A stretch of DNA of 64,000 nucleotides. Source: Glutamicibacter sp. B1 (GTDB lineage: Bacteria; Actinomycetota; Actinomycetes; Actinomycetales; Micrococcaceae). Shown here piece after piece: positions 42,661 to 42,948 of the stretch. The position numbers and the translations under genes were made by a program. The DNA is taken from the NCBI RefSeq assembly GCF_039602135.1, contig NZ_CP125942.1:1736001-1800000 (forward strand). Reading direction: 5' to 3'. A model generated the notes under the pieces. The model had not been told where the DNA came from. It was given only the letters and a program-made list of their open reading frames with translations, and searched no databases. The number at the start of each line of letters is the position of its first letter. The first letter of the stretch is position 1.

Positions 42661-42693
42661 CCCCTAGACAAAAATAGTGCTTAGTTTGTGGGG
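42661..42693 (-). promoter_or_regulatory. Hairpin predicted to sequester the leuA ribosome-binding site
   Basis: Read on the minus strand, CCCC and ACAAA pair with TTTGT and GGGG (one 3-base bulge, 12-base loop). The GGGG is part of the AGGGGA ribosome-binding site of leuA. The hairpin starts about 45 bases after the leader-peptide stop, so ribosome position in the leader could decide whether it forms. The energy was not calculated. Confidence 0.5.
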
Positions 42694-42737
42694 CCAGACA
42701 AGAGCTACTCCGCGACGAGGGGTCGGCCTGTAGACCA

Positions 42738-42794
42738 CTAACGGTCCTTTGGATCCTCGCAGCGGCACAGTAGAAGTAGAAGCTCGAAATGCAC
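42738..42794 (-). CDS. leuL: leuA leader peptide with five consecutive Leu codons
   Basis: A minus-strand frame starting GTG 42794 encodes MHFELLLLLCRCEDPKDR and stops at TAG 42738-42740. The run CTT CTA CTT CTA CTG is five Leu codons in a row, the hallmark of leucine attenuation. An earlier in-frame GTG at 42821 would add nine residues. Neither start has a strong ribosome-binding site. It lies about 90 bases upstream of leuA. Leader peptides controlling leuA are known in actinobacteria. Confidence 0.72.
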   Translation of the reverse strand: MHFELLLLLCRCEDPKDR

Positions 42795-42948
42795 GAAATG
42801 AGCATAACACCGAGACTTCACGGTTGCTCAAACTTATGTCGCGTTCATGTCACATTGTGGACAATCCGCCGCGCCTTTGACCCTAGACACTCTGACTCGA
42901 CCGGCGAAGAATGAGAAATCCACGGTGCTGGCTTGAGGAGGTCCACGA

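Follow-up and report, generated by a model that had tools for sequence, protein, structure and literature searches.

In the window (the whole 64-kb stretch of DNA that was analyzed), a short reading frame with a run of leucine codons precedes leuA, raising the question of whether, and through which RNA structures, translation of that frame could set the expression of the gene. The workings of the actinobacterial leuA leader have been at issue since leader-codon mutations in S. coelicolor proved to be at odds with classical attenuation, as cited in PMC1262725. A sequence-only reading of this DNA had proposed that ribosomes stalled at the leucine codons refold the RNA ahead of leuA and so open an SD hidden in a hairpin. 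The likely SD of leuA is AGGGG at 42665-42661 (minus strand), before ATG 42650.

40908..42650, minus strand: leuA, 2-isopropylmalate synthase, 580 amino acids, start ATG 42650 (TIGR00970, 835 bits, cut-off 697)

The leader ORF, its start, and its conservation

The short minus-strand frame with five consecutive Leu codons that the sequence-only reading had placed ahead of leuA was confirmed by the sequence, which reads, from 42794 to 42738, GTG CAT TTC GAG CTT CTA CTT CTA CTG TGC CGC TGC GAG GAT CCA AAG GAC CGT TAG.

42738..42794, minus strand: leader ORF, GTG to TAG, 18 codons plus stop, (M)HFELLLLLCRCEDPKDR; kept in all 18 genus loci, counting that of the window
42768..42782, minus strand: control codons CTT CTA CTT CTA CTG, five Leu, read from the sequence; synonymous changes within the genus
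42801..42806, minus strand: -10-like box TATGCT with TG before it, 6 nt 5' of the leader start

The frame is likewise open from GTG 42821, and that longer version contains the -10-like TATGCT, which ends 6 nt before 42794, so that GTG 42794 is the likelier leader start; GTG 42821 was rejected on this ground and because the leaders of relatives begin at the position of 42794. For comparison, we took the sequence ahead of leuA from 18 genomes of the window's genus (its own included; 19 loci) and from 80 named relatives, on which the family name Micrococcaceae used here is based. We compared 96 of the 99 loci, leaving out a LeuA paralogue at 50% (L021), a contig that begins inside leuA (L059), and one case with none found by the script (L066); by hand, we placed the leader starts of L003 and L071 and corrected nine leuA starts. 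A TANNNT box stands 6 nt before the leader start in 80 of the 96 loci and 7 nt before it in 15 (95/96 together), counts to be read with the fact that the script choosing leader starts gave a bonus for such a -10-like box. The promoter scan, which requires two hexamers 16 to 18 nt apart, had no entry for TATGCT in the window; a -35-like TTGAGC lies 19 nt from the box, outside that spacing. The distance of the -10-like box is as expected for a leaderless transcript, and the transcript of the leuA leader is most likely of this kind, starting at G 42794. If so, 70S ribosomes would start on the 5' end itself.

Runs of at least five Leu codons occur three times in the six frames of the window, against 0.3 expected. 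The run by itself is unusual but not unique, and its conservation is what counts. The sequence-only reading had made its case depend on conservation among relatives, and the run is kept, with four to six Leu codons in 18 of 18 genus loci and third positions that vary (CUA, CUU, CUG, CUC). The 18 genus leaders follow the pattern (M)HFELLLLL[CS]RCEDP[KRT]DR with small changes: Ile comes right after four Leu, replacing the last one, in 4 of the 18, six Leu codons are found in one, and the outlier L020 has HLT where the other leaders have HFE. CTA (56%) and CTT (34%) together supply 90% of the Leu codons in these leaders (n = 88), compared with 10% and 13%, together 23%, of the background Leu codons of the window (n = 1646, from 41 long ORFs).

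A hairpin and a pseudoknot probably shared with the LEU element

Seliverstov et al. described in 2005 (PMC1262725) the LEU element of actinobacterial leuA genes, a Leu-codon leader ORF with a pseudoknot and no terminator; here and below, statements about published systems refer to the parts of the cited papers on which we draw. The element in the window is a member of this LEU element described upstream of leuA: the Leu-run leader ORF, the pseudoknot, the lack of a terminator, and the place before leuA are common to both. The sequence-only reading, which had noted the leader and a hairpin, had missed the helices P1 and P2 listed here as well as the 2005 description.

42755..42765, minus strand: 5' arm of hairpin P1, CCGCUGCGAGG, inside the leader ORF, directly after the Leu codons
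42710..42720, minus strand: 3' arm of P1, CCUCGUCGCGG, from the family comparison; P1 has one mismatch in the window's genus
42724..42728, minus strand: box 2 of P2, GGCCG, in the P1 loop; the pairing in the window is read from the sequence
42692..42696, minus strand: box 3 of P2, UGGCC, after the P1 3' arm; overlaps the 5' arm of hairpin P3

P1 is present in all 96 loci with at most one mismatch within its 10-pair core. In 37 aligned sequences, 97.1% of the cells are paired and 7 of 11 pairs have changed on both sides; on four measures none of 500 shuffles did equally well, and on further pair types one of the 500 did. For 35 class-wide sequences, the corresponding values are 98.4% and 6 of 11, and 0 of 500 shuffles were as good on the four measures, but 255 of 500 were on further pair types. 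Sequence conservation of P1, and of the mostly AGU flank of its 3' arm, exceeds what pairing would require.

P2 joins the end of the P1 loop to a box past the P1 3' arm, giving a pseudoknot of 5 bp in the window. When partners were swapped between species, P2 was weak in a first set of 47 representatives (z -1.6, 28 of 500 swaps as good), reached z -2.9 (0/500) in 20 representatives outside the Micrococcaceae-like set and z -3.2 (2/500) inside the family, and gave z 9.4 for the own partner, with 0 of 1000 swaps as good, in 84 representatives of 155 elements. These 84 contain 55 distinct helix pairs, 11 of the representatives having four pairs only and one no helix under the rule applied. P1 and P2 appear to be the two helices of the 2005 LEU pseudoknot (PMC1262725).

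A scan of 42400-43000 found no terminator-like site (0.5 expected), that is, nothing of the kind by which a classical Rho-independent attenuator is recognized, in agreement with the sequence-only reading, which had seen no hairpin with a T-tract. Searching window positions 40000-45000 with 4227 Rfam models gave no match to the element and one chance match (E 4.8), on the other strand and outside the element.

Covariation in the family supports a helix between the leader 5' end and the leuA start codon

Three candidate helices that might close leuA were compared by swapping partners between species, with permutations that ignore relatedness; 80 further family loci were fetched, of which 19 were dropped at leuA-start or P1 finding. 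The candidates were Pm1, between the leader 5' end and the leuA start codon; P3, over the SD; and a stem between the Leu run and the SD.

42785..42793, minus strand: 5' arm of Pm1, UGCAUUUCG, at the very 5' end of the leader (probably leaderless), from folding and the family swap test
42646..42654, minus strand: 3' arm of Pm1, CGAAAUGCA, containing the leuA ATG 42650-42648
42685..42693, minus strand: 5' arm of P3, CCCCACAAA, from the predicted fold; no covariation support
42661..42672, minus strand: 3' arm of P3, UUUGUCUAGGGG, containing the SD AGGGG 42665-42661

Pm1, with 9 bp in the window, gave z -4.7 in the family swap test, with 0 of 500 swaps as good, for 27 representatives and again for 32 representatives of 128 loci; control segment pairs in the latter test reached z -1.3 at most. 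Compared with 400 random start-codon 12-mers, Pm1 ranked at or below 0.05 in 13 of the 32 (1.6 expected; Fisher 1.8e-9, relatedness ignored) but, with ungapped helices, in only 5 of the 32 (Fisher 7e-6). Its letters vary by lineage, as in GUUCGGG/CCUGAAC, UCACGGU/ACCGUGA, and GUGCAU/AUGCAC, and the genus outlier L020 has 5 bp only. Pm1 had no support in 20 representatives from outside the Micrococcaceae-like set (z -0.2).

The stem between the Leu run and the SD is the base stem of the model of Seliverstov et al., who favored a protein ligand (PMC1262725). In the window it amounts to CUUCUA with UAGGGG only (6 bp, two of them G-U) and is absent from the predicted fold. Its swap test gave z -2.9 (0/500) in 47 representatives, hardly better than a control in which the Leu run was paired with box 3 (z -2.6, 3/500); the stem gave -2.0 (13/500) outside the Micrococcaceae-like set, -0.8 inside it, and 0.5 in the larger family set. 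By a gapped-duplex rank test, 4 of the 47 ranked at or below 0.05 for this stem (Fisher 0.27) and 15 of the 47 for Pm1 (Fisher 2.4e-8). Among relatives outside the family, the stem looks strong in Isoptericola L094 (10 pairs) and Cellulomonas L083 (11); for the Micrococcaceae-like family it lacks support, at swap values of -0.8 and 0.5. Whereas the helix of the 2005 LEU model joins the Leu run to the SD, the one that the comparisons support in the window's family joins the leader 5' end to the leuA start codon, and the text of PMC1262725, in the parts used here, makes no mention of a helix of the Pm1 type.

P3 (CCCC-ACAAA with TTTGT-cta-GGGG) is the hairpin by which the sequence-only reading had the SD hidden. 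Its formation is borne out by the predicted fold of the window, with pair probabilities of 0.63-0.90; its role as a switch is not, since there was no covariation in 47 representatives (z -0.1, 240 of 500 swaps as good) or in 32 family representatives (z 0.3 by duplex energy, 313 of 500; -1.5 by ungapped helix). For this lack of covariation we set P3 aside as a conserved switch, and P3 is probably not the conserved part, judging by the sequence comparisons. It is unlikely that P3 alone hides the SD and that a stall at the Leu codons opens it by upstream refolding in which P2 takes box 3. Box 3 is common to P2 and P3, which are therefore mutually exclusive and could be exchanged; the 18 genus loci retain CCCC (box 3) and GGGG (SD), judged by eye, and Arthrobacter-type relatives keep GGCC at both places. 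Against this stand not only the absent covariation but also the many SDs outside the family that lack GGCC (by eye) and the mostly paired SD of the stalled folds described below.

Folding with a ribosome on the leader

The folding program allows nested helices only, so that its folds are without the P2 pseudoknot or a P2/P3 exchange. The free RNA is predicted to contain both Pm1 and P3, and its leuA start codon has an unpaired value of 0.13. That value rises to 0.39-0.41 with codons 5 to 8 in the A site, the SD then being 0.31-0.43 unpaired; once the fifth Leu codon (codon 9) occupies the A site, Pm1 can re-form and the value for the start codon falls to 0.04. Folding with the leader occupied, a check that the sequence-only reading had suggested, thus predicts partial opening on the start-codon side, which the leader's 5' end closes in the free RNA, whereas the SD, with a mean unpaired value of 0.33 in the free RNA and of 0.19-0.43 in the stalled folds, stays mostly paired.

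In the window, the predicted energy needed to open the leuA start region fell from 11.0 to 6.9 kcal/mol (a drop of about 4.2) when the footprint of a ribosome with the second Leu codon in its A site was blocked; for 30 shuffled leaders, the drop averaged 0.5 kcal/mol. Across 47 representatives it averaged 2.2, compared with 0.8 for shuffled leaders (Wilcoxon 1.6e-4, relatedness ignored), with no drop or a rise in 17 of the 47 and only 14 of the 47 ranking at or below 0.1 against their own shuffles. Plausibly, then, these models suggest, a stall opens leuA by way of the start codon and only partly by way of the SD.

A model for the control of leuA

We think it somewhat probable that the LEU element here is a leaderless Leu-codon leader that controls leuA translation through the position of the ribosome, a form of translational attenuation. 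The translational rather than Rho-independent level of control put forward by the sequence-only reading is also the one that we grade as likelier, given that no terminator-like site was found. The transcription start, the stalling, the sense in which leucine acts, and the way in which the SD is freed are inferred in what follows. On a transcript beginning at G 42794, if leucine were plentiful, the ribosome would pass the Leu codons and depart. The freed 5' end could then pair with the leuA start region, and behind the ribosome P1 would form together with the P2 pseudoknot (or else with P3, over the SD), leaving leuA closed. If leucine were scarce, a ribosome stalled within codons 5 to 8 would sit over the 5' end as well as the beginning of P1, and the start codon of leuA would stay open. 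Such a 5'-end switch on a leaderless transcript, if true, would be a simple form of gene regulation that needs no terminator.

Control codons follow the downstream gene

Element searches were made with R1, a covariance model of P1 and its flanks, under stricter filters for the family, class, and phylum. R1 found one element in the window's own genome (E 5.6e-9; next match, E 0.79), in which leuC and leuB have no visible leader. It matched 130 of 158 family genomes, 277 of 296 sampled genomes of the class, and 21 of 197 genomes of the phylum, 5 of these 21 lying outside the class, and a good many genomes had two or three matches. From the matches we picked 60 class loci by hand, many of them second copies, which are not a random sample: 28 stand before leuA, 11 before leuC, and 16 before leuB (with ilvE seen behind 15), the rest being 3 before a small protein resembling the LeuA allosteric domain, 1 unassigned, and 1 chance match.

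For the codon count (n = 55), we left out L170, which by eye looks like ABC-transporter coding sequence, L153, whose gene was not assigned, and L175, L181, and L191, which precede another gene. Of the 39 leaders before leuA or leuC, 36 contain LLL, whereas none of the 16 before leuB does (Fisher 3e-11, relatedness ignored); conversely, Val or Ile near P1 is found in 16/16 leaders before leuB versus 14/39 before leuA or leuC. The leaders before leuB are mixtures of Val, Leu, and Ile, for example, MRQVLVLITCRGGA, MRFVLILRCRDGA, and MRKQLVVIACRGRAS, and six genomes (G034, G043, G059, G124, G253, and G305) carry a Leu-run leuA copy alongside a mixed leuB copy. IlvE serves all three branched-chain amino acids, so the change of control codons fits the leuB-ilvE arrangement. 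That the control codons track the downstream gene favors the reading of leader codons by the ribosome, and their exchange, within a single RNA frame, between the copies at leuA/leuC and those at leuB amounts to a natural experiment on codon reading.

The leuB copies also set a limit on the model. In leuB copies, among them L144, L155, L160, and L162, some 140 to 670 nt separate the element from the start of leuB, so closure of a start codon cannot be the whole story there and the mechanism must differ. Direct closure of the SD is impossible at that distance, a point in favor of transcriptional control, in which the same stall would be coupled to termination within the leader, either Rho-dependent or pause-dependent, and leuL of C. 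glutamicum is listed as a transcriptional attenuator (PMC8709942). For the window we nevertheless hold such control to be decidedly unlikely, as 42400-43000 contains no terminator-like site and the supported pairing partner in its family is the leuA start codon itself. Least likely of all, and to our minds improbable, is the view to which Seliverstov et al. inclined, that a regulatory protein binds the element and the leader peptide is incidental: conservation of P1 and its mostly AGU flank past pairing needs and the leader-codon mutations unlike classical attenuation (cited in PMC1262725) would suit such a site, but the control residues follow the gene (LLL at leuA and leuC; V/L/I at leuB), even within single genomes, the Leu codons change synonymously in the genus, and the spacing of the leader start to the -10-like box is fixed.

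Returning to a codon-reading leader, sequence comparison shows that the leader is conserved, and it shows P1, P2, the helix between the 5' end and the start codon, and, in relatives, the match between control codons and gene. The last of these and, in the window's family, the helix at the start codon look to be the new part. The 2005 report gives the element at leuA, plus one look-alike in a B. longum transposase (PMC1262725), whereas relatives carry it before leuC and leuB as well, with changed codons; the word leuB is absent from the parts of PMC1262725 used here, and no leuB or leuC copy is described among the literature matches listed, as judged by titles and abstract openings. As a broader proposal, which we regard as evenly balanced, the LEU element would be a modular codon-reading switch of the dispersed leucine and branched-chain pathway throughout the class (Actinomycetes), in which P1 and the pseudoknot are kept and the codons swapped (Leu at leuA and leuC, Val/Leu/Ile at leuB-ilvE), and in which the leaderless 5' end of the Micrococcaceae would keep the leuA start codon locked except when a stalled ribosome occupies that end.

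With R2, a model lacking the control-codon region, 40 genomes were searched and 59 matches listed; among 17 fetched matches and one earlier place, there was no use outside the branched-chain pathway. Five R2 matches (L279-L283), with no leader and no leu gene, look like chance matches and were set aside.

Several further copies were seen. A species of the window's genus has a second LeuA, 50% identical (L021), with its own copy of the element at G010:C1:409634-409714. Presumed Microbacteriaceae (L135, L137, L139, L140, L142, and L147-L152) have a second copy before leuC, with Leu-run leaders such as MRRVVLLLSSRDETSF. L153 and L295 have an element whose leader, MQWSVRILSRRDEAR, is of the leuB-copy type, with no leu gene downstream in the fetched stretch. 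Other copies stand before a small stand-alone protein resembling PF08502, the LeuA allosteric domain, which would place a free leucine-sensing domain under this control, with leaders such as MSRMLVVRRRSGV; only the first of the following four ORFs passes the Pfam cut-off for PF08502.

L175:413-805: PF08502-like ORF, E 2e-6
L181:2466-2966, minus strand: PF08502-like ORF, E 4e-5
L191:2469-3017, minus strand: PF08502-like ORF, E 0.003
L278:370-807: PF08502-like ORF, E 0.04

Relation to described leaders

In the enteric trp, ilv, and leu attenuators, a ribosome stalled at the control codons determines which fold forms. The model for the window resembles them in its stall-selected fold and differs in having no intrinsic terminator. 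LeuL1 of S. lividans, MRFGLLLLSCRGEGL, is reported to be leaderless from RNA-seq and to have no typical terminator (PMC8079986); this leaderless start, the Leu run, the LLLLSCRGE core, and the lack of a typical terminator liken it to the window's leader, which is itself probably leaderless. Its account is without analysis of mechanism or structure (PMC8079986).

The leuL leaders of C. glutamicum and C. diphtheriae have four Leu codons before leuA; they are described in terms of (possible) transcriptional attenuation, unlike the model for the window, and no transcription start site could be assigned for C. diphtheriae leuL (PMC4046766, PMC5784534, PMC8709942, PMC3890552). In leucine production strains, the leuL leader and promoter have been replaced (PMC8709942), and the workings of this leader are relevant to such strains as well.

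Translation attenuation is treated in general terms in a 2026 paper that cites the mycobacterial cysteine case (PMC13236596), in which polycysteine leaderless ORFs of cys operons are described as a translation attenuator (Canestrari 2020, via PMC13236596). These ORFs are leaderless leaders, as the window's leader probably is, the amino acid there being cysteine and the RNA a different one.

Surroundings of leuA in the window

The leuA leader shares a 154-nt intergenic region with a divergent ORF at 42949-44121 (plus strand), which is FAD-dependent monooxygenase-like (best NCBIfam match NF005761, 221 bits, under the cut-off of 454). At the other end of the gene, an inverted repeat, ATGCACGCTATGACT ... 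AGTCATAGCGTGCAT (40838-40888), lies just 3' of the leuA stop codon and possibly marks the end of transcription.
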